From: a virus
Length of the DNA: 20,225 nt
Virus record (IMG/VR): IMGVR_UViG_3300023172_000258
Span: 1 to 20,225 of that record
Strand: one strand, 5' to 3'
In this document: positions 1 to 19,100 of the stretch, one piece after another
How positions within the stretch are numbered: position 1 is the first letter of the stretch
Layout: the number at the start of each line of letters is the position of its first letter
Notes under the pieces: generated by a model
Told to the model about the DNA's origin: nothing
Database searches by the model: none
The model's input: only the letters and a program-made list of their open reading frames with translations
Made by a program: the position numbers and the translations under genes

Positions 1-770
1 GTATAAATGATTTGATAGCTTGATGTTAAATCAAGGTTACCAATTGCAGATCCTGTGCCTGCGCCGGTTACAGTATCGTCAGATACATCTTCACCGTCTG
101 GTTCTCCGTCGCCGCCTGTAATATTTAAGTTATAACTATCAGTTGTGTCATAATTAAACTTGACAGTTTGCATTGCTGCTAACATTAATTTCCAGTCTTC
201 AGTTTTTTGATAATCTGGATCAGATACTGTTAAGGAATGAGATAAAGAAGAACTAAATCTTATTTCGCCGCCTGCATTGAAAAAACCTCTACGAGCATTT
301 GCTGAACCAAAATCAACAATAAACTCATGTATTACACTCTGTGGTAATGAACTACCACCCCATACAGTAGATCTTGAACTGTTTGCACCCGAAGATTCAA
401 CAGCAGCGTAATTGAAATTTATATCAAATCTGTTTGTTTCTAGTGCTGAAAGGTTAGCTTCATATTCAGCATATAGGTCATCCCAAATCAAACCTCTTTG
501 ATATTCTTCAAAACCCGATTTCAAACGAGTTTCAACATCTATTCCAATCAATCCTCCAGGTAAAGCACCTGTTTGATGGACATGTATTTTTGTGTAGTCT
601 GATGCTAAGTTTTGTAAATCTTCAGCAGTAACATCGTTGCCAGGCAAAACCGGAGTTGACAAGACTGTATTATTGTATCCTTTATCTCCACTTCCAACAC
701 CTAAGAGTGTAGCAACTCTACCTTGTAGTGTGTTGTATCTAGCTGCGCCTACAATGTCTTCTACTGCCAT
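1..770 (-). CDS. Virion structural protein, 3'-partial (cut by the left window edge)
   Basis: The frame opens at ATG 770-768, with AAGGA (781-777) six bases upstream, and runs without a stop to the window edge; 256 residues are visible. I chose this start because of the ribosome site and because the frame begins directly after the preceding stop (798). Visible motifs are 'YNTLQGRVATLLGVGSGDKG' (12-31), a 'VTAEDLQNLASDYTKIHVHQ' segment (47-66), 'GFEEYQRGLIWDDLYAEYEA' (86-105), 'VIHEFIVDFGSANARRGFFN' followed by 'AGGEIRFS' (146-173), and an acidic Gly-rich stretch near residue 220. The 'RGFFNAGGEIRFS' segment resembles conserved segments of marine phage structural proteins as I recall them, but I cannot name the family. 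The location with fibre genes under a late promoter supports a virion or baseplate role. Confidence 0.85.
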   Translation of the reverse strand, partial: MAVEDIVGAARYNTLQGRVATLLGVGSGDKGYNNTVLSTPVLPGNDVTAEDLQNLASDYTKIHVHQTGALPGGLIGIDVETRLKSGFEEYQRGLIWDDLYAEYEANLSALETNRFDINFNYAAVESSGANSSRSTVWGGSSLPQSVIHEFIVDFGSANARRGFFNAGGEIRFSSSLSHSLTVSDPDYQKTEDWKLMLAAMQTVKFNYDTTDSYNLNITGGDGEPDGEDVSDDTVTGAGTGSAIGNLDLTSSYQIIY

Positions 771-794: not shown

Positions 795-802
795 TATTTA
801 TG
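795..802 (-). promoter_or_regulatory. T4-type late promoter box (CATAAATA) before the left-edge gene
   Basis: CATAAATA on the minus strand contains the TAA stop (800-798) of the 502-residue gene in the same phase as the box at 7115. AAGGA and the ATG of the left-edge gene follow. Confidence 0.68.
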
Positions 803-2306
803 TTTTCAAAATACACTCAACAAGTTTTTCTTCTGCATTTGTATTTGTTTCAAGTGCTATACCAATTAATGCTCTTGTTGCAGTAGTTGTGCAAACACCA
901 TCTTGCCATGCGTATACTGCTTGACCTTTTGATACTGGTTCTTTTACTCTTACTGGAACACGACCTTTAAGTGCAATAGCCTGTCCGTCAAGATCACTGT
1001 TCATCAAATAAGCAGGATTTTCACTTATAACACCAACTGCAATATCCGAACTCTTACATGCTGTTGCTTCTGCTTCGATTTCAGCACCACCAATTGCCAT
1101 AGCTGTTCCAACAGGATACTCTTTATCAGTTGTATAATTTTCAGCTAGGTCAGCATAACGTGCTTTTGTTGCTGTTCCTGAAAATAAAACAGCAGAAAGG
1201 TTACCAGACGGATCTCTAACTGCTACTGTGTTTGCAGTATCAGCTGTGGACGCTGTTCTTGCAGTTCCAGCAACATCAAGTGCAGCAGCAGAAGTTGCTT
1301 CACCATTAAATGTATCTGCCCAAACATTTGAAAATTTAAGTGCTGAACTACCAATGTTATACTGAGCTGTTGTTTCAGGAAAAATACCTGTATTTGTAGC
1401 ATCTACATTTCTAACACTGATAATATTTGCAACACCAACTCCGCTACGTGTAGCACCAAAATATATCCTATCACCGATTGTATTTTGTATTTGTCCTATT
1501 GTATCTGAAACAATACTTACAGACAAATCATTACTGTTACCAACTGTAAATCCTGCATCTGCAAATCTTGCAGTTGTTGTAAAGTTTGCTGTAGTTGATG
1601 TAAGGAAATCACTTGCTGGTTGTCCATTTAATTTGAGTGCATCGCTTGCAGTTGCCCAAAGAACTGGTTCGCCTGCAGTGCCTGCTCCTGTTGTAACACC
1701 TGTTGTGCTATCAGTATTAATCAGTGTAATACCTCGACGTATTAGAGTAAATCCTGTTAAATCTGGAACATCTGCAGGTTGTGTTGATCCTAATGTAAAT
1801 TCTTGTGAGCTGATGACATAAACTGGTGTATCGTTAATAAGAGCAACAATAATAGACTTGTTAGCACTGAGGGTGTCTGTTACTGTAACACTTAACATTT
1901 GTGTTGTTCCGTCGCCAGCAGCTTGTGGACCTACAAGTATAAATTCACCTGTGCCGTTTTTTGCATATAGCTGGCTACTTGTGGTGCTATACCAAAGGTC
2001 GCCTTCGTTTAATCCTGCAGGTTCTGTAGCAGCAACTTCAGCGCCGCCTGCATTTTTCCATGCTGTTCCTGTATAGAATTTAAGTTTTGCAGTTCCTGCA
2101 TCATACCAAACCTGTCCTGTAATTGCTTTTGCAGGTGCAGTTGTATTTGCAAAATGCTCTAGTAAATGCAAAAAGTTCTCGTTTTGTGCTTCGCCGTAAC
2201 CACTGTAGTTTTTACCTATCAGTTTGATATCGGTAGTTTGATCAACTGTGCCGTCTTCAACTACAACCAGTTGGTTACCGTTAAAAGTGTTTATTATGTA
2301 TGCCAT
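798..2306 (-). CDS. Tail fibre-like structural protein with 'ARYADLAENY' C-terminal domain
   Basis: This 502-residue protein starts at ATG 2306-2304 behind a strong GAGGAG site (2317-2312). Residues about 24-190 are the shared N-terminal module ('IGKNYSGYGEAQNENF', 'TGQVWYD', 'EGDLWYSTTSSQLY', 'ILVGP'). Residues 317-335 ('NIGSSALKFSNVWADTFNG') match a segment of the collar fibre. An Ala/Thr-rich linker (336-380) leads to the C-terminal domain (about 381-502), which starts 'KARYADLAENYTTDKEYPVG' and continues with 'GVISENPAYLM', 'ALKGRVPVRVKEPVSKGQAV' and 'ALIGIALET'. This layout recurs in cyanophage virion proteins and loosely resembles the Peptidase_G2/neck-appendage C-terminal domain ('YAE...GVVS'). 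I see no proof of autocleavage, and a beta-clip-type trimer cap is equally possible. It has its own late promoter box. Confidence 0.9.
   Translation of the reverse strand: MAYIINTFNGNQLVVVEDGTVDQTTDIKLIGKNYSGYGEAQNENFLHLLEHFANTTAPAKAITGQVWYDAGTAKLKFYTGTAWKNAGGAEVAATEPAGLNEGDLWYSTTSSQLYAKNGTGEFILVGPQAAGDGTTQMLSVTVTDTLSANKSIIVALINDTPVYVISSQEFTLGSTQPADVPDLTGFTLIRRGITLINTDSTTGVTTGAGTAGEPVLWATASDALKLNGQPASDFLTSTTANFTTTARFADAGFTVGNSNDLSVSIVSDTIGQIQNTIGDRIYFGATRSGVGVANIISVRNVDATNTGIFPETTAQYNIGSSALKFSNVWADTFNGEATSAAALDVAGTARTASTADTANTVAVRDPSGNLSAVLFSGTATKARYADLAENYTTDKEYPVGTAMAIGGAEIEAEATACKSSDIAVGVISENPAYLMNSDLDGQAIALKGRVPVRVKEPVSKGQAVYAWQDGVCTTTATRALIGIALETNTNAEEKLVECILKT
1737..2237 (-). repeat. 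Shared N-terminal fibre module, copy in the 502-residue protein
   Basis: Residues about 24-190. Markers are 'IGKNYSGYGEAQNENFLHLL', 'TGQVWYD', 'EGDLWYSTTSSQLY', 'ILVGP', 'NDTPVYVISSQEFT' and 'GFTLIRRG'. Confidence 0.88.
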
Positions 2307-2311
2307 ATTCG

Positions 2312-2317
2312 CTCCTC
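2312..2317 (-). promoter_or_regulatory. Ribosome binding site GAGGAG
   Basis: Strong GAGGAG five bases before the ATG at 2306; it decides the start of the 502-residue fibre gene. Confidence 0.78.
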
Positions 2318-2328
2318 GTGCTTACACT

Positions 2329-2336
2329 TATTTATC
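2329..2336 (-). promoter_or_regulatory. T4-type late promoter box (GATAAATA) before the 502-residue gene
   Basis: GATAAATA on the minus strand lies in the 34-base gap, five bases after the upstream stop and 12 bases before the GAGGAG ribosome site. Same box and same geometry as the boxes at 7115 and 795. Confidence 0.7.
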
Positions 2337-2340
2337 GTAA

Positions 2341-4347
2341 TTATGGATATGTTACGGTTGACACCCATTCCCATGTATTCAAACCAAAATTTGCTCTTAA
2401 TTCAATTATATGCCTATCCATTCCGAATGTAATAGTAGATGTTGGATCAGGACTTACAATAACATCTGATAATACAGATACGTTTTGAACACCCGCACTA
2501 TCAACAGCTAAGAAACTTTTTACTACGCTAGAGTTTACATCAATTGGATCCGTTGTTGCGGTTGGAGATTCTGCTAAAATTCTGCACGTTGTATTATTTT
2601 GAACAACATTTGCATTAATAGGTATCCATACATTTAATAAATTTACCAATGCAGTTTCTAAGTCGCCTGCTGCTCCAAATCCAGCTGCACCAAATCCTGT
2701 TGCATTTACAGTGAAATATCTAGTGGCACCTGTAATTTCTTCATCTACATAACCTTTTGTTGCTGCAAGATCATCTGCCGATTCATTCTCGACACTATAA
2801 TCTGCAACTAATTTACTTATTGGTTTTTTAACACCTGTAATATTTCTATAATTAAGTGTTCCTGGATTGATTGCTATATCGTTAAGAACATTAAATTCTA
2901 GTCCGTCAGCATTAGAACTTGTTATTACATTTCCGTCAATATTAATGTCATCAACATCAATTGCAACTAGTGTTCCAATACTTGTAAGATTACTGTTAAC
3001 AACGCTAGGACCTAGTCCTGTTTTTGTTAAAACTGTTTCATCTTCAATTTTATATTTTCCAGCAATGCTGTCAATGTTAATATTAACTGCTGTTGTCCAA
3101 TTATGGTTTTCGTTTCTATATACCCAGTCAATACTTCCAGAAGTTGTATTGATTACTATACCAGCACCGTCTATATATTCACTTGAACTATCTAGCAATG
3201 TGCTGTCGTCTGGGGTTGCAAGTTCAATAACCTTATCTGCAACCTTCAATGTTGTGACTTGTTCATTTACAACAGTTCCTACACGTAGATCGCCTTCAAT
3301 ACGCATATCACCTGTAACTACTAAGTTACGTGGATCTGCTGTTGTTCCTATATGAACACCTGTAGTTCTTGGTGATAAACCGTCAGAAATATCACCACGT
3401 TCAATACTAGGATTCGGAGCATCATTAAAAATACCCATACGTTGATTAGCTGCATCAAATTTAAATGCACTGTAAGTTAAAGGAGTTCCTGATCCAAGGT
3501 CTTGGCGCAATTGTAGTTCAAAATCATTATCAGGGCCGGTGTTGTCGAGAAGTGTTTTTGTTCCAGATTTTTTAATGTTTAATCTATTATCATTACCAAC
3601 AAAAATACCATTTGGACCTCTAAAAGTAAGTGTTCCATACGCAGTTCTAGCACCAGCCGGATTAGTATCATCAAGTGTGCTTAAGAAACTATCTTTAGTA
3701 AATTGATCTCCAGTTGAAGACACCAATTTTTCAGCACTATCAGCTTTTCCATAAAAACTAAAGTCTGCAAATCCACTATTAGGATTGAATCCTGTTTTTA
3801 TATCAGTAAATCCGGCTATTGCAGGAAATGGTGTAAATGTTTCTTTTGACCAAATACCAACATTACTACCATTAATAAACAGTTTTACAATAATTTTATT
3901 TTGACCAATTGTATCTTTGACTGTTACTGTTTCAATACCTGATTTTAATTGAGATTTTGTGTAGGTAGGTCCAACTGGTATTAAGTCAGTTCCGTCAAAG
4001 AAATACATAACATTTTCAACACCATTAATCCAAATATCTCCTTGCACAAGAGTAGAAGGTTGCGTAGATGAAAATATTGTGCTATCAGTGCTTCTAAAAG
4101 TAGTTCCGTCATATACTTTTAATCTGCCTTCAGCTGTATCATACCATAATTGTCCTCGTAGTGGTTTATTAGGTGGTGCAGTGTTTGCAAAGGATTCTAA
4201 TATTGCAATAAAATTTTCATTTATGCTTTCTCCAAACCCTTGATAGTTTTTTCCTATTAATGCAATGTCTGTCGTATTAACATCTAGTTTACCATCTACT
4301 AAATCTACAAGTAATGATCCGTCTGTTTTGTTTAATTTATAACTCAT
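2341..4347 (-). CDS. Tail fibre-like structural protein, paralogous N-terminus
   Basis: This 668-residue protein starts at ATG 4347-4345, overlapping the collar-fibre stop by one base (TAATG). Only a weak GGGG-type site precedes it, so translation is probably coupled to the upstream gene. Residues about 25-185 match the shared N-terminal module ('IGKNYQGFGESINENF', 'RGQLWYDT', 'QGDIW', 'IPVGP'). The middle contains 'FRGPNGIFVGNDNRLNI' (242-258) and 'TTLKVADKVIELA' followed by 'DGAGIVI' and 'IDWVYRN' (365-412), a pattern I recall from cyanophage fibre-like proteins. 'LAATKGYVDEEI' (528-539) resembles the boundary segment before C-terminal fibre domains. A tandem GFGAA pair lies at 551-560. The last 90 residues are Thr/Val-rich beta sequence ending in 'TWEWVSTVTYP', with no collar domain or recognised tip. 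A fibre or baseplate appendage is likely; the binding target is unknown. Confidence 0.9.
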   Translation of the reverse strand: MSYKLNKTDGSLLVDLVDGKLDVNTTDIALIGKNYQGFGESINENFIAILESFANTAPPNKPLRGQLWYDTAEGRLKVYDGTTFRSTDSTIFSSTQPSTLVQGDIWINGVENVMYFFDGTDLIPVGPTYTKSQLKSGIETVTVKDTIGQNKIIVKLFINGSNVGIWSKETFTPFPAIAGFTDIKTGFNPNSGFADFSFYGKADSAEKLVSSTGDQFTKDSFLSTLDDTNPAGARTAYGTLTFRGPNGIFVGNDNRLNIKKSGTKTLLDNTGPDNDFELQLRQDLGSGTPLTYSAFKFDAANQRMGIFNDAPNPSIERGDISDGLSPRTTGVHIGTTADPRNLVVTGDMRIEGDLRVGTVVNEQVTTLKVADKVIELATPDDSTLLDSSSEYIDGAGIVINTTSGSIDWVYRNENHNWTTAVNINIDSIAGKYKIEDETVLTKTGLGPSVVNSNLTSIGTLVAIDVDDINIDGNVITSSNADGLEFNVLNDIAINPGTLNYRNITGVKKPISKLVADYSVENESADDLAATKGYVDEEITGATRYFTVNATGFGAAGFGAAGDLETALVNLLNVWIPINANVVQNNTTCRILAESPTATTDPIDVNSSVVKSFLAVDSAGVQNVSVLSDVIVSPDPTSTITFGMDRHIIELRANFGLNTWEWVSTVTYP
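3793..4275 (-). repeat. Shared N-terminal fibre module, copy in the 668-residue protein
   Basis: Residues about 25-185. Markers are 'IGKNYQGFGESINENF', 'RGQLWYDT', 'LKVYDGT', 'QGDIW', 'IPVGP', 'IWSKETFTPF' and 'GFTDIKTG'. It shares 'IGKNYxGxGE' with the copy at 1737-2237. Confidence 0.88.
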
Positions 4348-4349
4348 TA
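4345..4349 (-). promoter_or_regulatory. TAATG stop/start overlap between the two fibre genes
   Basis: The collar-fibre stop TAA (4349-4347) and the ATG of the 668-residue gene (4347-4345) share one base. The nearest purine-rich site is only GGGG some ten bases upstream, so re-initiation by the terminating ribosome is likely to matter. Confidence 0.72.
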
Positions 4350-6488
4350 TGTTACCCCGTGATAGATGATAAAGTTGATTGCAGCAAACGGTGGTGTAAT
4401 ATCTAAAGGATCGTTAGGAGTGCCGTCAGTTATAGATCCACTATTAAGTAGTCTACTACCTGTTCCGCCATCAATTCCTCCTCCACTAATTGTTTCCGAA
4501 GAACTTGTTGTAGCGTTTGTTACTGCATAAAATTGTTCACCTGTGCCAGCAGCACGTAAATCGTGTGTGTGTTCTGGCAAATTTGGTTGCGTAATAGTCA
4601 CTTCGTCACTACCTGATACACCGCCCATGCTACCTGTGCCGCTATTAGTTATTCGGTTTGCTCCACCAGGAGTTCCTATACCAGTTGGTAAGCGACCTCT
4701 AAAATCCGGTATACGGAAAAAGTCTGTTGCACTACCAGAATATGGATTACCCCAATACCAGGTTGTTGAATTACTTGGATCCCAACCCATAGCATCAGCA
4801 AGTAGTCGATAATTAGTTGATCCTGTTCTAGGTTTATCTGTTCCATCGCATATAAACCAACCAGTTGGTGCAACCAATCCTGCCCACATCATAACTGTTC
4901 CAATTGGCAGTGAAGAAATTTGTGCAGTTATGTCTGCTATTGTGGTTTTGAATACTCCTAAAGTTCCTGTAGGATCTACTGTAACATCGTCTGCTGTTGG
5001 TCTATAGATGATGATTTCATCTGAGCTAATTAATCTACCAAGTTGTGTTGCTACATCTAATTTTGTGTTTATAAAATCATCGTTAATAGTGGTTGTAAAA
5101 GTTTTTGAACTTCCGCCAGTTTGTCCATCAAAACTAAAAGATGTTGCACTTACATCACCTGTCATACTAAAAGTAGTAGGACTAGTTAATTTGCTCGATG
5201 AACCTGTAACATTGCCAGTTACATTACCGTTGACGTTGCCTTGTAGATTACCGTATACTGTATTGGCATATATACCGCTGAATCTTTTACCTGTGCTACC
5301 TATGATACCTTGTCCGTTTGTATCAGGTTCCATAACAGTTCCAACAGGGTTTGTCTGGATTACATCTGTAAATGTAGCTCTGCCACCAACTTGTAATTGC
5401 TTTGCAACCCCTAAACCGCCTTTGACAGTTGCAGCACCTGTTGTTGGTGCTAAACTATCAAACTCACTGTTTACAACAAGTTTACCAGTGGTATCTAATT
5501 CTGCATCATCGCCTGTTTCTACACCAATATTGAGATTGCCTCTCATGTCTAATTTTTCTGTTGGACTTAAAGTATTGATGCCAAAATTACCATCGTTGCT
5601 TATTCTTACAACAGGATTAGTGCTTACTGGAGTTCTTATATCTAACGTTCCAGCACCAGTTAATTCTAGTATACCGCTTTGTCCTTCAACTAATGCACTA
5701 AAAGTTTTTACTGTGCCAATTTCAATACCTGCATTAGGTGTTGTAAGTTTGTTTTGAAATACTTGAGTGCCGCCACCTGCATCCTTACGTGCAAGTGTTG
5801 CAACAGCAACAGTTCCTGAAGGCTGTGTGAGTGTTGGATTTTCTTGTATATATGCCGCTTGCTCAACAATACCTTTGATGTTTGCTAAGTCTCCGCCTAC
5901 ATTTGTGCTTAAAGTTGTGCCTTTATATATTTTAGAAAATCCAGACCATGCAGCCTTAGGTGTAAATTCTGTGGCACTTATTACACTAACAGGTATGTCA
6001 TTTACATAATTTACAATTACATCTCTTTCTACATCACTGGTATCAGTTCTTGTTTCAGCTAATGCTCCTGTTTTATTACCAGTGGCAAAACTAGGCCCTA
6101 CAAGAATCCATCCACTACCACTATACAAATATAATTGGCTAGTGCTTGTGTCAACCCAAAGATCGCCTACTGTGCTGTTAATGCTTTCAGGCTCTGCTCC
6201 GCTTTTTTTAAGACCTCCGGCAGCAACCCAATTTGTGCCATCATATATTTTTAATTGATCAACATCATTGGTTGTATCATACCATAATTGTCCTTCAACT
6301 GGATTTCTTGGTGGATTTACATCAGCAAAATTTTCTAACAGATGTAAAAAATTTGTTAATATAGGTAAACCATAGTCTGTGCTATTTTGAGGAGGTAATT
6401 GTAAACTAGTCTCAGTATTCGGACTAGTGCCTTCAACGGTGATGCTACCTTTGTTTGCTGAATCTGTAAACGGAACATTATATGCCAT
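4347..6488 (-). CDS. Tail fibre-like protein with C-terminal phage tail-collar domain
   Basis: This 713-residue protein starts at ATG 6488-6486, which overlaps the previous stop as TAATG; GGAGG lies about nine bases upstream. Residues about 32-190 are the N-terminal module shared with the next two genes, with two tandem LW...W units (66-91 and 108-131). The middle carries fibre-type repeats: 'VVRISNDGNFGINTLSPTEK' (293-312, like endosialidase/fibre 'GIGTTSPTEKL' segments), 'TTGAATVKGGLGVAKQLQVG' (349-368, a motif common in cyanophage fibres as I recall), 'IIGSTGKRFSGIYANTVYGN' (395-414) and a G-N-V-x tetrapeptide run (414-429). Residues about 528-713 are a phage tail-collar domain: PIGTVMMWAG, PTGWFICDGT, FFRIPDFRGRLPTG, LPEHTHD and C-terminal PPFAAINFIIYHGV. 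Collar domains occur in T4 gp12-type short tail fibres and other receptor-binding fibres, so host attachment is likely. No T4 gene name can be assigned with certainty. Confidence 0.93.
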   Translation of the reverse strand: MAYNVPFTDSANKGSITVEGTSPNTETSLQLPPQNSTDYGLPILTNFLHLLENFADVNPPRNPVEGQLWYDTTNDVDQLKIYDGTNWVAAGGLKKSGAEPESINSTVGDLWVDTSTSQLYLYSGSGWILVGPSFATGNKTGALAETRTDTSDVERDVIVNYVNDIPVSVISATEFTPKAAWSGFSKIYKGTTLSTNVGGDLANIKGIVEQAAYIQENPTLTQPSGTVAVATLARKDAGGGTQVFQNKLTTPNAGIEIGTVKTFSALVEGQSGILELTGAGTLDIRTPVSTNPVVRISNDGNFGINTLSPTEKLDMRGNLNIGVETGDDAELDTTGKLVVNSEFDSLAPTTGAATVKGGLGVAKQLQVGGRATFTDVIQTNPVGTVMEPDTNGQGIIGSTGKRFSGIYANTVYGNLQGNVNGNVTGNVTGSSSKLTSPTTFSMTGDVSATSFSFDGQTGGSSKTFTTTINDDFINTKLDVATQLGRLISSDEIIIYRPTADDVTVDPTGTLGVFKTTIADITAQISSLPIGTVMMWAGLVAPTGWFICDGTDKPRTGSTNYRLLADAMGWDPSNSTTWYWGNPYSGSATDFFRIPDFRGRLPTGIGTPGGANRITNSGTGSMGGVSGSDEVTITQPNLPEHTHDLRAAGTGEQFYAVTNATTSSSETISGGGIDGGTGSRLLNSGSITDGTPNDPLDITPPFAAINFIIYHGVT
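4350..4907 (-). other. Phage tail-collar domain (receptor-binding tip candidate)
   Basis: Residues 528-713 of the 713-residue fibre. Diagnostic elements are the Gly-Trp 'APTGWFICDGT' segment, 'RIPDFRGRLPTGIG', the His pair in 'LPEHTHD' and the hydrophobic closing strand 'PPFAAINFIIYHG'. The Gly/Ser/Thr-rich stretch between the His pair and the last strand (about residues 645-692) is the part expected to be exposed and variable. In T4 gp12 the equivalent region forms the receptor-binding head around a metal bound by His-x-His pairs; here a His-Thr-His triplet is at 640-642. Confidence 0.88.
5199..5252 (-). repeat. G-N-V-x tetrapeptide repeat in the collar fibre
   Basis: Residues 413-430 read GNLQGNVNGNVTGNVTGS: four near-perfect four-residue units encoded by twelve-base repeats. 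Such Asn-Gly repeats form triple-helical fibre shafts in other phages. Confidence 0.8.
5919..6395 (-). repeat. Shared N-terminal fibre module, copy in the collar fibre
   Basis: Residues about 32-190. Markers are 'LTNFLHLLENFADVNPPRNP', 'EGQLWYDT', 'VGDLWVDTSTSQLYLYSGSG', 'ILVGP', 'NDIPVSVISATEFTP' and 'GFSKIYKG'. It is closest to the copy at 1737-2237 (shared 'NFLHLLE', 'VISxxEFT'). Confidence 0.88.
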
Positions 6489-6502
6489 TAAATGTTACCT
6501 CC
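6486..6502 (-). promoter_or_regulatory. TAATG stop/start overlap with upstream GGAGG
   Basis: The stop of the 202-residue gene and the start of the collar fibre share one base (TAATG at 6490-6486). GGAGG lies about nine bases upstream, inside the end of the first gene. This points to coupled translation. Confidence 0.75.
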
Positions 6503-7096
6503 ACTCAAACTCTGCACTCTAACTGTATAATCAATTTGTATAAGTCTGTTTAAGGATTTTTGCACAGGATGGAATATAACATGTGTTATAAGTTTTCCTG
6601 TGCCAGTTGGTGAATAACTTATCAATCCAAGTTCATCAAAAACAAATTGGTCTTCGGCATTGGCGGCAGTATCGTATGCTGCTTGACCATCTGGCTCACC
6701 ATAATCTAACAAACATGAAACTAATATGTCAGTATAATTAGTTCCACTTAAATGCCTTGTTTCTATTTTGTTCCTTGTTGGATCAGTGTTGTTTACACTT
6801 TGATCATCAACTACTTTTGTATAGGTTTGATTATAAAGGCTTGCATTAGTTCCTGTGCTGTTGGGTGTGAGATACGTAATTATACCAGTAGGATCAACAC
6901 TTGTGCCTCCATTGCCAAACGCCATTTCATATATAAATCCTTGGCCAGCATTACCGAGGCTTTCTGCCAAAGCAATACTCATGTTTTCATAATGAATAGC
7001 ATTACGTTTGTTTATAAAGACTTCACCAGATTCTGGGTTGTGTATCTTTATATGTCCTTCAACGTGTATGCCGCTATAATCAGTTTTTTGTTCCAT
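6488..7096 (-). CDS. Conserved hypothetical structural protein, probably baseplate/fibre-associated
   Basis: This 202-residue protein starts at ATG 7096-7094, preceded by AGGTGAG (7108-7102) at good spacing and by a late promoter box. I do not recognise a named family. Visible features are a Gly/Asn-rich 'EMAFGNGGTSVDPTG' segment (residues 57-71), a 'FDELGLISYSPTGTGKLITH' segment (153-172) and a beta-rich C-terminus (173-198, 'IQIDYTVRV'). 'FDELGL' motifs of this kind occur in phage tail/baseplate-associated proteins. There is no signal peptide or membrane segment. It sits between the giant structural gene and the collar fibre gene and overlaps the latter by one base, so it is probably made with the fibre set, perhaps as a connector or baseplate component. 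A small chaperone-like role is also possible. That it is a real gene is nearly certain; its function is inference. Confidence 0.85.
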   Translation of the reverse strand: MEQKTDYSGIHVEGHIKIHNPESGEVFINKRNAIHYENMSIALAESLGNAGQGFIYEMAFGNGGTSVDPTGIITYLTPNSTGTNASLYNQTYTKVVDDQSVNNTDPTRNKIETRHLSGTNYTDILVSCLLDYGEPDGQAAYDTAANAEDQFVFDELGLISYSPTGTGKLITHVIFHPVQKSLNRLIQIDYTVRVQSLSGGNI

Positions 7097-7114: not shown

Positions 7115-7122
7115 TATTTATC
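7115..7122 (-). promoter_or_regulatory. T4-type late promoter box (GATAAATA) before the 202-residue gene
   Basis: The minus strand reads GATAAATA. T4 late promoters are TATAAATA at -10, recognised by the phage sigma gp55 with gp33/gp45; in marine T4-like phages the first base is relaxed (NATAAATA). The TAA stop of the giant gene (7120-7118) lies inside the box. Transcription would start a few bases before the AGGTGAG ribosome site. Confidence 0.7.
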
Positions 7123-10100
7123 GTGGTAGCGATATTGTTTTGTCTCTTATAAATCTTGCGATTTTATTTTGGCTATCACTGAGCGATAGTGAAGTATTTG
7201 TATCAACTATATCGTTCCAGAGATTACCATTTTTCTTAACTAGTAATATTTGTTCACCAGTCAACGGTATATTATCAGGGTGTGCATCATCCTGTATATT
7301 TAATATTAACAGCGTTTTTGGTTGTCCATCAATATACGCTATTTCCATTGTATATTCAGCTGGCACTATTTCGTCACCGTCTGGAGAATCTAAATCAACT
7401 GCTGCATTAAATTTATACCAATTCCTGTCTTTGAGTTTGTTGTTTGGTTCTAGAGGTAAAGGCTTTCTTAATCGTCTTCCACCAACAAAAATATCAACCA
7501 TACTTGCTGCTATTTCATCAATTAATGTTTCAGACTCAAATGCACTTAAACTGCTTCCTATTTTTGTAACGTATTCGTTTGCAGGAGTATGAAGATCTAC
7601 ATCTAGTAATATTTCTCCTGTGCTACCATCAGCAAAATCTGTTAAATCAGTAATTTGTTGATTTTCTTTATAAGGAATAGTTTCTTCAGGTCCTTGCCCT
7701 ACAACAGTTGTGCCGCTTTGATGCACAGTTGCAATGCCTGTTCCTAATGTTCCTCTACGTAATCCAGATAATGTTGCATTTTCTACAGCATAATATTCAA
7801 TACGTTCTTTATCAATCCATATTATACCAGGCTGATTTCTATTGCGATCAGGTATTGTAATTCCATCAGCATTTTGTAAAATAATTTGACTATCATAATA
7901 ATTTAATGGTTGTGCTAATGTATATGTATTTTGATTATTCAAACGCTTGAAGTGGAATCTGTTTAGCATGTCTTTGAATATTCTAAATCCATATTTAGGT
8001 GTTGATACACTACCTGCAAAATGCAACACTTCTATTGTGCTGTTTTTGTTTACACGTCTTGCTAATTGGACTCCTGTCTTATCTGCATTTAACACGTAAT
8101 CAATTTCTGGTGTCAATAATTTGCCATTTTTAACAATCCAAACATAGTTTGTGCTTATAGCAGGCTTGCTTAATTCTAAATATCCTTTAGTTAGATTATT
8201 TCTATCTATATAAGCATTTGTTCCTTCTGGAGCATGTGTGGTTGAAAACACAACATCAAAACTTTCTCTTTCAAGTCCAGTGATATCATGATTACTAAAT
8301 GTATATATTTTAACATCGTGTGTAGATCTAGGAGCATATGCAAAATTTAGCGTGTCGCCCTGTGTGTAATCAAACCCTGTCAATGTTACAGTTTCGTATG
8401 TGCTATCATTTCCATAAGTAGCAATTGCTGTAACACGTTGTGGTGTGTCATCGATTGTAAATAGAGCTTCCATATCTCTCAAATATCCATACAATTTTAA
8501 TGTTACTGAATTTCCATTTACACTTTTTTCTTTGACAATACCTCTAACAGTTGTGCTATCATCTGTCAATGCCAATATTATTTCATCTCCAACTGGAATG
8601 CCGTTAGTCCACGCAGGACTTGTTGTTTCAAATGTGATACTCGTATCAGTAAAAGTATATTCCGCATCTCTAATAATATGCACTTCTAATGTATCGCCTA
8701 CTTCTCCAATTTGGTTAGAAGTTAAAACTATCCTACCAGTTATTGCATCAAAGTCCCAATATTGAGGTGCAAGATAAGTTTCATTAAGGTAAACCAAAAT
8801 ATCTCTTTGGAAAACTTTTGATAAATTTTCAAACTGCCATTTGTCTATTTCATAACTTCTATCAGAAGTTATTATTATTTTTTTCCTATATCCAGGATTT
8901 AATATCTTATTGTTGACTTGCACAATTATGTTGTTTGCAATAGGTAATCTATTGTAAGGCAATAATACAGAACCGTTTGGATTTTTCGCTGTTTTAAATT
9001 CGTGATAATATTTTACATCGTCAGGAACAAAAGATTCGTCAATTACAATTTGACTAAAATCAGGAGTTGTGTTATTATACACAGTATAATCAAAAATGTC
9101 ACCTATAGCACTTTGTGTTGTAAGTTCAATTTCTAATGTTCCATTATTATCTTTTGGTTCAGCTAATTCAACATTTCCGTTTCTTGTTACAAATAAACTA
9201 TATTCTGTGCTGTATTTTATATTTGTATCAAGTCTTGTGGTTTTTTCTGTTGTTACTATTCTGTCACTATCAATTAAATCTAATCCATTGTTATCAATAA
9301 GAATAATATTGAGATTTTTATTTGGTTCTATTGCTGTGCTATCTGCAAAAATAAATGTGTTTGTTTTCCAATCAATAGTATATTCAGATTGATCAATAAT
9401 AACATCGTCTAATTTAGCAATAACATTTGTTTGAGATGCAGCAACTCCACTTAATGGATATTCTAATCTACCATCATCGGTTAGGTAGTTATGAACTGTA
9501 ATTATACCTTGGCCGTCTTGAACTCTGTTGAAGACTTGTATATCAAGTGCATCGACTAACTGTCCTGGAACTTGCTCTTCTGGACCTTTGCTCGTTGTTG
9601 GCGTAACAAACCCATCACCGTCAACAGTTATATCACCTGCTTGCACACCGGTAGCTGTAGAAAGCGCAAAATCGCCGCCTTTTAATTCTATGTCAAAGTT
9701 TGTAAAGTCTGGTGTTGTAGTTCCATCACTAGATGCTTTTCTGAATATTACAGTATCGCCTGTTGTGTTTGCAACATACGGAACATCGTCGAGTTCATTG
9801 AATTTTTCTAAAATATCGTTTACAACAATACTTGTGGTTATACCGTCACCTGTAATAGGAGATATAACTGCATATGGAATCCTTGGATCTGGAGTAGGCC
9901 ATTTTGGACTGTCTAATCTAATAGGATTTTCACTAGTAGGTGCTAATACACTTTTAAAGTATACATTGTATTCAACATTGGCTTCGAGAGGAAGAGCTAA
10001 ATCTAAAATATCAGTGCTTCCATCTAAGACAAATATTTCATCATCAAATGTAGTATCATATGTGTCAAAACTATTGGCTCCAAAACCATCGGCATCAAAT

Positions 10101-13100
10101 CCAAGAGTATTGCCAAAACTGATTGTGTCTATCTGAACTCCACCATAATCAATTCCGTCCATTACTTGTGCTAAATCAACACTGCCGTCTTCATTAGTGC
10201 CTAAACCAGGCATACCAGTTGTAGGTTTATAAAAATAACTAATCCTATCAGCAGCAGTAAGCATACTTGCGTTTCTATAATAATCAACCAAAATTTCTGC
10301 ACCCAAAGCAGGTGGTTCAGTAAAGGTAATAGTGCCCAGGTTTCTAGTATAACCTACACTTGTATCTTCTTTGTTTCCTGGGGTGTATTCACTACTTAAT
10401 GCTTCAACTCCATTTACTGTTACAACAACTTTTGATTTTCTTGTGTCAATAGGCCAAGTAAGTGTAAATTCTTCTTGTGCACCAGTTCCTGTAAATGTTT
10501 CTGTAGGAACTTGAAGACTTGTGAATACTAAGCTACCACTTACACGGTCAAACTTCATTAACATATGTGTGGCTTTTGCTTTACCATTTCCAAGTATAAC
10601 AATTGCTTTTGCTGGTGTAGAGTCTTCGTCTTGACTTCCATCAAATGTAATTGTAGGAGCTGTAATGTATCTAGCATTACTTGTATTAATTTCTATTGAA
10701 TTTACCTTGGTTCCTGCAAGAGATGCTGTCCCTTTTAGTGTAGGACCTCCGCCGCCGCTGATTGTAACGTTAGGACCGTCTGTCCATCCACTACCACCGT
10801 CGTAAATTTTAATTTCTTTGATTTCAAAACCAACATTATCTAACCAATGTTTCTGAGGATAAGTTTGAACAAAAGGACTATATGTCTGAACTTCGCTATT
10901 AAATACACTTGTTCTTTCAGCAACAATACGTCCTTCAACTGCATCATAACGTGGCTGTAGGTCAAAATCTGTGACGCTTGTTTGAGAAGGTTCAGTTTTT
11001 TGGTAACTGCTAACATATTCTCTAATTTTGGTTTTGTAAGGTTTAACTTCGTTTACATAATCTTGATAATTTGATAAATTATCATTTTTAAATGTTATTT
11101 TCTGTTCTAATTCGCCAACGTTGTGTTGTGCTTTAACAAAGCTGGTTTTGAATATCCAATCAATATTAACCTGTTCTGATAATGCATATCTTACACTTGC
11201 AAAGAATAATTTATTCCATTCAACTTCTAATTGATCAACAAATATTTGATTTTGTAATGATTCCATAATTATACGAACTTCATTAACTGGTTCTCTATCA
11301 TACAAATAAGAATCAAATACTTGATTATCAAAACCGCTTGATACATTTTGATATAACAATTTACTGAATTCTATTGTTCCGTTTTGTCTACCAATTACTT
11401 TATAATTTACAGTATAATCTACTTCTGGCTGATTATCTATTTTTTCTAGTAGAAGCCAACCGCCTGAACCTATATTTTCGATTTTAACAATTTCACCAAT
11501 AAGGTCATTTGTTGCTTCAAGAGCATAGCTGCCTGGGACTAAATGATTTATAGCTGTTGTTTCATCATATCCATCTACATAATAATCTACATATTGCCAA
11601 TACAGAGTTGTGTCATATGATTGTATTCTTTCAACACTCCATTCTCGTTGTGCAGGTGTATAATTGTATAAACTCCAAAATCCGCCTATAGTGCTATCGT
11701 TTTCTACTAGGACAGTAAAACGTCTTACAATACAAATTGTATCGGCACCATAATTTTTACCTTCATTCAAAACTACTGCACTAGTTACTTGTCCTATATT
11801 ATTAATATACAATTGTATTTTTGCACCAGTTCCTGTGCCTCTAATGTCAACTGTTGGACCTTTTCTTACACTACCAGAAACATAACTAGTGTCAATATAT
11901 CCTCTACCAGGATTAGTAATTGTAACACTTTTTATTCTACCGTCAATAACTGTAGGCGACAAAGTAGCAGTTTCAATTTTAGCAACTGCAACAAATCTTA
12001 AAAGATTTTCACTTGCAATTTTTACATCATAATCATTACTGTATATGCTAGGCAAAGGATCAACTTTTTGTAATCCACTGATGTCAAAATCATCAACAAT
12101 TAAATTTTCCGCTAATACACCGTTGACCCTTTCAACTATTTGTTTTAAGGCTTCAGTTTTATTAATAAACATACTTTGATTAGGTGTGTTTAAAACACCA
12201 TATCTACGTGGTATGCTTATATCTATATCAGGTATTTGGTTACTGTTTTTATCATAACCAACTAAACTGTCTATCCATTTTTGCACAATATCTGCATTTG
12301 GTTTACTTGAAGGCACACCTTCAGTTAGAAGCTGATATTCACTATGAATGTTGTTTTCAGTTTCAAACTTTTTCCATTCAATATGCAGAACTATATTTTC
12401 ATCCTTGACTAGATTTCTTACGTTATAAAGTCCAAATTTGTTGTTTTCATAGAACGCAACAAATCTGTATCCTTGCCCTGCAGGATCTTGTATAAGAAGT
12501 GTAACATCAAATGCACTAATTGATCTTGATTCAATTGAAGGCAATGTTTTTTTATTTTTTACCCAATAATAATATTTGTTTGCAAACGTTCCTGTAACAG
12601 GATCATAAATGTTTGCTATTACATAACTATCGTCACCATACTTAGATGTTCCGCTAATGCCATCGGCTAAACCTTCTACAGTGTCTGCAATATCATCCCA
12701 TTCTGTTGGAAGTAAATCACTTTCAACCCATTCATAGACATCTACTTCAAAACTAGGTAATGGTGTATTCCAGTTATTAGTTTTATATTCTAATCCACGT
12801 TGTCTTGTATTAAACCACTTAATAGTGCTTAAATCCCACCACAGTTTTCCTATATAACTACTGTCCCAAGGTGTTTTGTTTCCTGTATTTGTGCTGCCTA
12901 TATTATAAACAGCAGGATCATAATATAGTTTATATGACAATTCTTGTTCTGCAGGTCCTGCAATTTTTCCCTGCACAGGGTCGATATAATCTAAATATGT
13001 TACAAGATCTCCATTGGTTTTATCGTATAAGAAAACATTTTTAATTTTTGTTAAATCAACAAAATCTTGAACTAAACTGTTTGATGTCCATGAGTTTGTA

Positions 13101-16100
13101 TTTTTGTCAGATCTAAAATCTACAACAAAACCAGTATTTGTTCCAACACCTGCATCGTTTGTAAACAACGAACCAGGCTGTCCAACAATAATATGATTAT
13201 CAATTAGTTTTAATGTTGGTTCAACTGCTTTTGTTGTGTCTCTAAAATAGCGCATTTTTTCTGCATATATCCAAGTATCATTATAATTTTCAAAAATGTA
13301 TACTTGTCCATTATCTCTTACAGTGTCTGTAATTGTTGTAGCACTATTATCAAATTGTGTTGTGTTGCTATCAAATGTAACTTGAGAAATATTATCTCCG
13401 TTTATACTCATAATACCTAATTTATTATTTGCAAAATCGATACTATATCCAAACGCTTCATTTGCATCACCTTTTGGTGAAAATAATTCTTGTTGAAAAC
13501 TATATTCAGGATTATCACTATCAAAGTTATATCTAAAAATATAAACTTTTCCGTTGTTTAATCCAGTAACATCACTACCTATAGCACCAACTGCTATATC
13601 TTTTCCATCATCAGAAACAGCAAGAGCTTGTCCAAAATCTTCTTCTAATTTTATATCGCCATCAATATTGGATTCATATATGTAACGGCCTTGATTATCA
13701 TTATATCTGTATACACTTATACGATTAATTTCTGTAAGATCCAAATAACCTGATATAGCTAATACACTGCCATCTTTACTAACGTCAAAACTTTTACCAA
13801 TTTCAACAGCAGTTCCTAAACCAACACTGTCACTTTCAACTGCTGTAACATCTCCAAAGTTAGGCACAAACCCTACATAATCAACATATTGATCTAATGC
13901 TTCCCAATCTGATGAGCTGCCAGGTAAAACACCACTACTTGCAAAAATATTAGTTGTAGCTCTATACAAAATATAATCGGCAAATACTATCTCATTTTGA
14001 TAATAATTTTTCAAAGGATCAAAAGTGCCTTTGTAATTTTGATCTCTAGTATAGTTGAAAAAATTAACATTTGCTAAACTATTTTCTATAAAATAGATTC
14101 TGCCGTTATCTGCTAAACTTCTTATGTAGAACCTATGAACTAAATCGTTAGTAAATGCCGATTTAATAGCAATACCAAATTGTTCATTATCTCTAGCTAC
14201 AGGAGATAAGATTGTGGTTTCTAATTTATATGTTGTTACATCTTTTTTGTAAACATGGATAACACCTTGATTGCTATAACCGCTTAGATTTCCTGTGGGA
14301 TCTGCTTCAAGAACATCAACCAATTCCCAATCTTGAGATAATGTTCCTATTGTGCTATCCGCAATACCAGCCGGTGTGTCTCTAACAGCTCTCCATAGTG
14401 TTCCTCTATCGCTTACAATATCATATTGTAAATAACTTGCTGTGCCGTCAAATTCTCCAACATACTTACTGCGAACATCACTTGCTAACGGCGCACCAAC
14501 TAAAATGTATTGTCCATTTTGAGTTACATCAACTGATGTTCCAAACCCAGAACCGGTGTCATATAAAACACCTGTAGAAATTAAACCAGAATTAGTTGTG
14601 TGTGAACCCATTGCTGAAGTATCAACAGGAGAAGTAAGATCTTTATCATTATAGATACTAAATGATGTAGAAGTCAAAATAGAAACATAATAGTAATTGT
14701 CGTTTAAAGCAGTAAGTCCTTCTGCGTTTCTGATTTGTATTCTTTCACTTTCTCTTAAACCATGCGGACCTGAAGTAGTAATTTCACCTGGATTGCTATT
14801 CACAATTCCTACAATACCTACTGATGAAATTGCTTCTGGTTCTAGTGTTTGTAATAATGTGTATTCTAATGCTTCACTTAATCTTGAATAAACGGCTACT
14901 TTACCATTCAAGCCAACATCAGGCATACCAACTGCTAATACTTGATTGCTGCCGCTTGCAGCAAAAGCTGTGCCATATCCTACATCGTTAAGGCCTTCTT
15001 CGTTTGGTATTTCTGCTTGTAGATTAAATATTTTTGTATTTGAAATAACTTCGCTTTTTTCGGCTCCGTTATTGTCTATCCATAAATTATCATTGTCATT
15101 GATATCGTAGTCTATTAGTAAAGCGTTCACATCGGTGATATTTGCTATTCTGCGACTGTTCAGCTGACTTACTATTCCAAGAGTGCTATCGCTTAAATCA
15201 ATTTCATCATCGCCGATGTCTTTGTTAGAATAAAATTCTACAACATTTAATGATACATCTCTAGCTGTCCAAAATCCATTTACATCCTCGTTTATATTGT
15301 TAATACCGATTATTTCACCAGTTGTAAATGGCACAGCTCTATCAAATATTGCTGTGAATCCTAAATCTGTTTTTATAATTTTGTTTATACGTGCAGGTGA
15401 TTGAATATGCTTGTAAACATTCCAACTCTGTTGAACTTCAGGCACCCAAATATATGTGTCTAGGTTAACTGAATTAATATCAAAACTTAGAACATCTTTT
15501 AAACTACGTGCAATAAAATTAACTTGATCTAATGCTACATATCCGCCAGTCTTTGTATATTCTTCTAAACTAGAATTAGTTGGAAATGGTGCATGATCAT
15601 AATCTTGGTTTTGCAAGTAAACTTTATTTTTAGGATATTGGTAAACAAGGTCTGTTCGGCTAATATCAACAGTGTTTACAAGTTCAACAGTTTGAGGTTC
15701 AATCCTAAATTGTTTTTCGTCTAGTTGATATTCAACTTCGTCAAAACTATCTGTCGCACCATACTGTCCTAAACGTATTGCCCATTCTTCATAAAATTCA
15801 AGACTGTCTTTGTCTGCACTGCCTAACTTGTCAAATAGTTTTGTTAGTGCATTTTTTGTGCCTTTGTCTTGTAACATTCCTTGATAGAATTTGTATTGTG
15901 CAACATCATCATTGATTATGTTTTCTAAATATTGACGTTTTTGATAGCCTATCAAATGCTGTGCTAAACGTTGCTGTTCGCTGTCAAAATTATCAGTATC
16001 TAAATCATAAAAATCAGTGAACTGATTTGCTCTATAATCCCAGTTAGGCATCAAAGAACTTTCAGGACGTTTTGGCAACACATTCCAGTTGTTAAAATCA

Positions 16101-19100
16101 AATTCTTCTGTGCCTGTATGTGTTACAGTAGCAGTATAATAAAATTGTTTATATTTTACTAGTTCGCCAATGTAATAATCTTTCCAAGATTCCCATTCTG
16201 TGACAAGTGCTTCATCATATGTGAAGCCTGGAATATTTAGACTACCGTTCCACCCGTCGGTTCTATATCCTACAATCTTTATACGCTCTTGTCTATAGCC
16301 TGGCTCAGGATCATATATTGTATCATTGAATACCGTGGTATTATCAATTAGCACAACATGCTCTTTTTGAACAAGCGGAAGTTTAACAAAGAATATGCCT
16401 TGAGCTGTTGATTTTGGAGTAATACCAAATTGGTTTGTATTGTCTCTAATTATGTTAGTAAAGCTACTTCTCAGTTTTGAAGTATCGGCTTGTAAAACAT
16501 CCAGACCATAAAAATTGTCAAAGATATTATCTACAACAAAATAATCTTTAGAAAATTTAAGTTGGTTAGCTGCGGGACTTAATACGATTACACTTGCTTC
16601 TGCCCAATTTTGTGTTGTCCAAAACAAATATTCTTTTATAGCTAACCTAAAATCTTCAATACTTTCAGTTTCTCTATTATTATAATCAAAAACAAATCCT
16701 TGTTCTTTTAAATATTTTTCATAACCTAAAATAAAATCAACGACTTCTTGTATCTTTGTATATACAGTGCCATAATCAACAACAGAAGGAACAGACTGAT
16801 ATCTTTTTCTAATTAAAGCAGTAGCACCACCTGTAATAGGCAACTCGTTTAATTGTGTATACAAAGTGTTGTCAAAATTTGTTCCGGTTGTGTGTGTTTC
16901 ATTTATCCTGTAGAATCTATTATTGTATTTTACAATTTTTCCTGCGACAAGTTGTTTGCCTTCATCCCAGGTTATAAAACTATCACTGATGCCGCCAACG
17001 TTGATTGCAATATCGTTTGCGCTTTCAAAAGGTTTATAGATTGTAAAGAATGGATCTTCTTTATCATATCCAGAAACTTTAAATCCTCTATCTACTTTTT
17101 CAATTACTATTCCACTATAAGAAATGAGATTTTGCGCACTACTTGTGTTTAGGAAAATTTGATAATTTTCCTGAGGAATAAAAACATTACCTTGATTTAA
17201 AGGTGTCCTACTGTCTAATACTAGTTTTAATTTGTCTTTATCTGCAAATCCTGCTAATTTAATTCCCATTTGTGAGTTTAAATTTTGTAAATTATCAATA
17301 TATTTTTCATAATTTGCATTGATATTGCTTTGTAAATAATTTTCTATATAATTTACTAAACCCAATGTTTGATTAACTAAATTATTTGTTTTAGTTTTAG
17401 GAAAAACTAGATCAACTGAACGAATTGCTTTTTTGTTATTGTAAACATAATTACCAGCAAGATTCCTACTAGTTCTAGATCTATCAAATGCAATTGCAAA
17501 AACTTGTGCAGGTCTATTTACAATCATAGCTAGTAATAAACTAAAAGCATAATCACTACTACGTCTCCATGCTGTTTCAATAGGTGCTTCATCTCCAAAT
17601 TTAAATAAAACATTAGACATAGTTGTGTAGCTAAAATCTTTAGCATACCCGCTGGCTAGTGGATCTAATAATTGTCCATATTCGTTTACGGGCAAATGAC
17701 TTGTCAAGCCTGGACGCACATATTTTTTTGCAACAATAAGTGGTTTGCCTGGTTCTTTAATATAACCATTTTCAATGTCTTTCCACATTATCAAATTATC
17801 TTTTGTATAAGGTGCTGGACCGTATTTGGTTTCCCACCATGTAGGCTTAACACTAAATCCTAGCATTTCCCATGGAGTTGTATGAGGTGTGTCAGTTTCG
17901 TATGCCATTTTGTATACTGCACGCCAATACCCTGGTAGTTGTTCACCAGTAGGACTTACACTCCTGCTGTAATTGTAAGTAAAACCATCACCTCGTGTTA
18001 CAAAATCATTTTCAGTATAATCAGGATTTCCTACCAATGGTAACCAAGAAATAAAGTCACTTATTAATATTTTGTCTAATGATTTTTTTGTAACATTACT
18101 ATTGCGATAATTGCCTTCTATGTAATCATGTATATTTAAAATAGACTTATCATAATCAATTTTTAAATTATTATAAATTCTTTTTTCTAATTCTAAAAGT
18201 AGATCATCTCTATAATCATTATAGGCAACAGATTTACTACCATCGTGACCTATTATTATATTGGTATTTGAAGAATATGTATTATCTACTTGCAATGACG
18301 GAACATACGAAGGATAAATTCCTATTTTTGTTGGAGTCGGAGGAACAAAACTACCTTCAGTATTTTCATACTCATAAATTTTAATTACATCGTCATTTTG
18401 CATTGTCGCTGTAATATCTACAAATCCGTTATCGGTAAAAGTATAATCAAGTCCATAAACTAATTGTGTATCGTTAATGTAAACATACACAGCTTTTCTA
18501 CTTAATTGTTTTACATTGAATATTTTTGATAAAGCATAATATGTATTTCTGCTATCTAAAACTTTATATTCAAGTAGTTTAGCACCACCAAATCCTAACA
18601 TATCAGTGCTGTAAAATGGCATATTTTTTGACTTGTTTTTTGTCAATTCTTGCATAATTAAATCAACATGATCTTTTATAGGTCCTACAAAAGAACTATT
18701 GGTTGCTGCTTTTAAAAATTCCCTTTTGAATTTGCTGTATTCTGTTTTTGCTAACCTAATAGCTTTTACTATATTTGCATTTTTATCTGTTAAATGATAA
18801 AGAGGTAAGTTTATAGGTCCGCTGTGTTGTAAGAACTTGCGTCCATATTTTGATACTATACCCAAATCTCTAAGATTACTACGTCCTGGTTGCATACCAG
18901 AAAATTCTGGTATTTCAGCAATCATGCCTTCAACATGATCATTTACTTGACCAAGTGTAAATTCTGTAATATTATTGTTTAGTGGGTTGCGTTCTAAATT
19001 GTAGGGTATTTCATAATATCCAACATCTGTTTTTTCTGCACTGCTTTTTGTTTTAATAATAATAACATCATCTGTAGATAATTCTTCAACTAGATTAATT

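Follow-up and report, generated by a model that had tools for sequence, protein, structure and literature searches.

The DNA analyzed here is a 20,225-base fragment of an IMG/VR virus record (IMGVR_UViG_3300023172_000258; hereafter the window), which encodes three adjacent tail-fiber genes on its minus strand. Transcription runs from a giant virion protein through a 202-residue protein to the fibers and then to a 333-residue protein. We named the fibers after their ends: C for collar (713 residues), M for middle (668 residues), and A for ADLAE (502 residues). From the 202-residue gene through the gene after A, adjoining genes overlap by 1 base or lie no more than ∼35 bases apart, a spacing as in a single operon, and a 51-kb IMG/VR contig has the same genes. 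A preliminary description of this locus had proposed that the three fibers share ∼160 N-terminal residues, differ at their ends, and arose by tandem duplication followed by exchange of tips.

Over their first 200 residues, the three fibers gave pairwise local alignment scores of 344, 322, and 246, whereas shuffled means were ∼35 (standard deviation ∼6); beyond residue 200, the scores were 52, 83, and 49, all within the shuffled range. Pairwise identity to the 502-residue protein was 41%. The preliminary description was right about a common N terminus but had underestimated its length, which we measured at about 190 to 195 residues. It was also right that the ends differ (a Collar domain on the 713-residue protein, a beta domain on the 668-residue protein, and an ADLAE-type domain on the 502-residue protein), and the duplication it proposed is borne out by genes that are paralogous through the N-terminal module and lie within a baseplate operon. 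The first 60 residues of the module are its best conserved part across all three types among dereplicated relatives, and when the chain was predicted alone, their predicted local distance difference test (pLDDT) values were mostly 40 to 55. Such a conserved yet poorly predicted segment would fit one that folds on a partner. PDB searches with single sequences returned noise, so profiles were required; for the N-terminal module and for M, T4 gp9, gp10, and gp11 were absent from the PDB lists of profiles A2 and A3 and from the fold-match lists. Apart from a sub-threshold Pfam match to Gp10_C, gp10 and gp11 were not recognized, and the XD domains of CBA120 TSP4 gave no convincing fold match to the module (7rej; probability 0.18, E 0.32).

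The C tip has the organization of T4 gp12, a Collar domain followed by a gp12-type receptor-binding end. Collar (PF07484) was found at residues 530 to 601 with 33.5 bits against a cutoff of 24, the tip profile matched T4 gp12 (1OCY) with an E of 8.8e-10, and H640 and H642 (H-x-H) are invariant in 33 C orthologs. The M tip is a fairly confidently predicted beta domain for which no PDB fold match with E < 0.001 was found. The middle part of M is similar to a protein of cyanophage S-SKS1 that bears a baseplate wedge subunit annotation, and a BFVD fold search of M returned an Atu_ph07 fiber and many other phage proteins, none of them explanatory.

Three lines of evidence point to a relationship between the A tip and the C-terminal domain of phi29 gp12. 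Peptidase_G2 was found in 43 of 58 A orthologs (E up to 1; best E 1.3e-9), often weakly, and members tested singly mostly scored below or near the cutoff with part of the model aligned. The predicted fold matched phi29 gp12 (3suc, E 1.2e-4; 3gqh, E 1.2e-3), with both structures among the top fold matches, which also include the phi29 head-fiber base. Finally, a D-x-A-E motif is common to A tips and phi29 gp12 (D692-F-A-E695). The chaperone-type end that the preliminary description had suggested is supported for A, whose end is chaperone-like and appears to be Peptidase_G2-related. In phi29, the serine preceding the motif is the last residue of the mature chain (PMC4690869). All 161 A tips read Ala-D-[LI]-A-E where phi29 reads Ser691-D-F-A-E, retaining the D and the E; because alanine replaces the Ser691 equivalent in every copy, phi29-type self-cleavage is doubtful, and judging from these residues its loss in the A tip is likely. 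A-type ends also occur in Campylobacter phages (e.g., CP220, NC_027997:29158-29505), often two per genome, and sit there where the shared N terminus is not matched.

Table 1. Features of the fiber operon, in window coordinates.
Feature	Position	Strand	Basis
Giant virion structural protein, at least 4368 residues, 5' end beyond window	7118..20224	-	phrog_10938, E 2e-293
202-residue conserved protein, between giant protein and fibers	6488..7096	-	phrog_11259, E 1e-69
C fiber, 713 residues; overlaps each neighbor by 1 base	4347..6488	-	
C shared N-terminal module, residues 1-193	5910..6488	-	Sequence comparison
C tip, residues 520-713, collar plus receptor-binding-like end	4350..4931	-	Pfam Collar; T4 gp12 1OCY profile match
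Collar within C tip	4686-4901	-	PF07484
H640-x-H642 of C tip	4563-4571	-	Invariant in orthologs
M fiber, 668 residues	2341..4347	-	
M shared N-terminal module, residues 1-192	3772..4347	-	Sequence comparison
M tip, residues 540-668, predicted beta domain	2344..2730	-	Block pLDDT 68-93
A fiber, 502 residues	798..2306	-	
A shared N-terminal module, residues 1-195	1722..2306	-	Sequence comparison
A tip, residues 378-502, Peptidase_G2-like (phi29 gp12 C-terminal) domain	801..1175	-	Ortholog Pfam matches, fold matches, motif
ADLAE motif of A tip	1140-1154	-	
Gene after A, first 256 residues, cut by window edge	3..770	-	333 residues in longer contig copy

Relatives of the cassette were collected in four IMG/VR scans yielding at least 304 loci, a sample of a larger family. 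Open reading frames (ORFs) carrying the module form three large tip clusters of at least 154 (C), 168 (M), and 161 (A) unique proteins. The order C-M-A was present in 234 of 309 sampled loci (overlapping loci counted), giving at least 144 distinct C-M-A protein triplets in environmental phages, and the giant virion protein and a 200-residue protein preceded C-M-A wherever this was checked. A search with the N terminus only returned at least 80 loci, 56 of them with a full C-M-A, while most others were cut by contig ends or held partial genes; since these loci show C-M-A too, the trio is not just an effect of full-protein queries. Across nine IMG/VR contigs of up to 382 kb, strong N-terminal matches were confined to the trio, and no contig had more than one weak, partial match outside it. 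Two short ORFs comprising the N terminus only (L051 and L056) were considered as new architectures and rejected because they look like broken genes.

We screened 260 dereplicated proteins for exchange of tips between the three slots and removed one from the final count, a 752-residue protein of locus L087 that had been a candidate M chimera; its tip is new or unrelated, and a weak, generic match was its sole link to M. The N-terminal tree sorts the proteins by tip, the nearest neighbor by N-terminal identity has the matching tip type for every one of the remaining 259, and N-terminal identity across types reaches at most 46%. No exchange of tips between slots was seen in this set within the sampled clade. 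The proposal of tip exchange among the three genes is therefore not supported, given the complete agreement of N terminus and tip and the fixed C-M-A order; as far as the three types are concerned, the N- and C-terminal relationships coincide. Because the N-terminal type predicts the tip type and the order is fixed, the duplication is old. The proposal survives in part elsewhere, in an A end that is incongruent with its body and in a fourth gene with an unrelated tip at two loci. At these loci (L085 and L087), the extra gene lies between M and A and combines an A-like N terminus with a new tip; at a third locus, L159, the middle gene is short and carries a different end. Duplication plus acquisition of a new tip does happen, rarely.

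Within slots, the A end behaved differently from the other tips. In 70 dereplicated cassettes, tip similarity correlated with N-terminal similarity at 0.75 for C and 0.64 for M versus 0.21 for A. Within a cassette, the giant protein, the N-terminal modules, and the tips of C and M tracked one another with r of about 0.6 to 0.8. Some pairs of A proteins have N termini at 0.50 with ends at 0.79, and others have N termini at 0.78 with ends at 0.26. In a tree-forcing test of 36 cassettes using fast searches, imposing the body tree on the end cost 252 log-likelihood units for A, compared with 63 (C) and 97 (M). Generally higher conservation of the A end may contribute, but conservation alone does not produce reversed rankings. 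From the incongruence of the A end with its body we conclude that this end moves between orthologs. Thus, shuffling between paralogous slots was not encountered, and exchange between orthologs was, clearly in the A slot only.

Cultured phages carry partial versions of the cassette. In PA5oct, the order is a giant protein, a 200-residue protein, gp358 (with an end judged collar-like by eye), gp359 (with an A tip), and gp360, and the record annotates gp358, gp359, and gp360 as virion-detected with notes of electrospray ionization tandem mass spectrometry ("ESI-MS/MS"). PA5oct and phage MIJ3 share with the window the gene order, a homologous N terminus, a collar-like plus an A-type fiber, and a homolog of the next gene; PA5oct differs in that its cassette has no M gene and its N-terminal homology spans only ∼80 to 100 residues. 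The Agrobacterium phage Atu_ph07 (gp176) and the Sinorhizobium phage Phosso have a fiber with the same N terminus and an A-type end in the same place after the giant and 200-residue proteins, but it is the only fiber gene in the cassette; in both phages, the giant-protein equivalent comes after a baseplate wedge gene. A gene of ∼200 residues occupies the corresponding place in Phosso, Atu_ph07, and PA5oct alike. In PA5oct, gp316 to gp318 (L313:925-6423), which are adjacent virion proteins with weak matches to the N terminus, form a second cluster of three, and Xanthomonas phage XacN1 (L007:7522-16578) has six tandem genes with the N terminus, none of which falls in the three main tip clusters.

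The 202-residue protein is the best conserved member of the cassette in the IMG/VR cassettes compared, and the gene after A is a homolog of PA5oct gp360 (E 1e-12). In the longer contig, A is followed by two genes of 333 and 391 residues (L088:11537-13766) that are diverged tandem paralogs of each other, so duplication recurs in the operon. Farther downstream (L088:14173-20054), glycosyltransferase-like, radical SAM-like, and desaturase-like proteins were recognized by eye, and the corresponding area of Phosso and Atu_ph07 includes several genes with a radical SAM annotation. These are followed on the opposite strand by a gene for a 464-residue fiber-like protein (L088:20051-21445) with a short NSSSNKFEGYNGSAW stretch at its end; the odd middle gene of L159 closes with a similar ending.

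The cassettes comprise three separate orthologous lines with a common N-terminal module, unrelated tips, and a fixed order, and we take the trio as an old, stable baseplate set rather than a fresh shuffle of tips. We think it probable that all three fiber proteins belong to a single contractile-tail baseplate of a large T4-like myovirus, each fixed in its role as a specialized homotrimer. Their N-terminal modules would dock at the same or equivalent baseplate sites, making contact through the first ∼60 residues. C may bind the host surface as T4 gp12 does, M could carry a second surface-binding or partner-binding end, and A would end in an assembly or trimerization domain akin to the one in phi29 gp12. 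That domain probably remains on the fiber, because alanine replaces the serine found where phi29 gp12 is cleaved. The duplications would predate the sampled clade and have been followed by specialization, as is thought for T4 gp10, gp11, and gp12. The A end is occasionally replaced through recombination between orthologs. A broader version, that large T4-like phages of a widespread aquatic family use one docking module and three paralogous homotrimers to build the baseplate rim, with a noncleaved relative of the phi29 chaperone that is now a permanent fiber end and is swapped independently between orthologs, is a tentative suggestion to which we give considerably less credence.

Several observations weigh against the interpretation as three fibers of one baseplate. 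In this phage and its near kin, the trio is known from genes alone, and no full-length M homolog was found in any phage for which proteomics exist. No relative of the N-terminal module has a solved structure, and the common docking site is what we infer. The collar-like end of PA5oct gp358 was assigned from its end sequence and position, with the BLAST match to C covering mainly the first 86 residues. For A, the copy in the window has no Pfam match at all, and small capsid decoration proteins are also among the fold matches of the tip. Finally, the body tree also fails approximately unbiased tests when applied to the tips of C and M, at a much smaller cost.

A different arrangement would have the fibers compete for one docking site as alternative receptor-binding proteins, yielding mixed virions with a wider host range and tips that are shuffled. 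The common module is compatible with this idea, as are the new tips on the fourth genes of L085 and L087, the tandem genes of XacN1, the second cluster of PA5oct, and the need of PA5oct, a phage with distant C- and A-type fibers, for two receptors (PMC6950013). We nevertheless regard it as unlikely; the end of A looks like an assembly domain rather than a receptor binder, and composition and order are fixed in 144 cassettes with no exchange between slots, which suggests three fixed roles and not interchangeable alternatives. Joining the three chains into one hetero-trimer, which the preliminary description had also considered, seems highly improbable. The common module is the only feature in its favor, three unrelated ends could not make one threefold tip, and the PA5oct cassette has just two such genes. 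Moreover, the C and A ends belong to the T4 gp12 and phi29 gp12 families, which are known from homotrimers. Separate homotrimers, perhaps branching from one site, are a better fit. Such branching, in which one fiber docks and the other two attach to it through their N-terminal modules, would be a special case of the homotrimer interpretation; it has a precedent in CBA120, whose TSP1 to TSP4 form a branched complex on TSP4 (PMC8825819), and a further model in the T4 gp10-gp11-gp12 unit. We hold it to be possible but doubtful, as the trio carries the same module on all three proteins rather than extra docking domains on one, no convincing match to the TSP4 XD fold was obtained, and T4 gp9 and gp10 were not among the matches listed.

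The finding is sound and the trio merits annotation, but the data do not show ongoing exchange of tips among its genes. With it, uncultured aquatic phages of a large group, in which adsorption proteins are unassigned, gain a named fiber set with clear ortholog lines. The trio is also a natural setting in which to ask whether an assembly domain can move from fiber to fiber apart from the receptor-binding parts, and the M end adds a fold without a solved match in a widespread fiber set.

Among known systems, CBA120 differs in its XD-type fold, which was not recognized in the trio, and is similar in that several fibers of one baseplate are organized via their N-terminal domains (PMC8825819). The C-terminal domain of phi29 gp12 differs in the cleavage-point serine and in the partial match to its Pfam model, and resembles the A tip in predicted fold and in the motif D-x-A-E-x-[YF]. 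The closest known arrangement is that of T4 gp10-gp11-gp12, which are encoded by adjacent genes, form trimers at the baseplate rim, and are thought to have a common fold and origin (PMC3004832). No T4 counterpart was found for the M and A tips, and the N-terminal sequence homology of the trio is still plain, unlike in T4; both systems have three adjacent genes for baseplate fibers or pins, and the end of C is like that of gp12.
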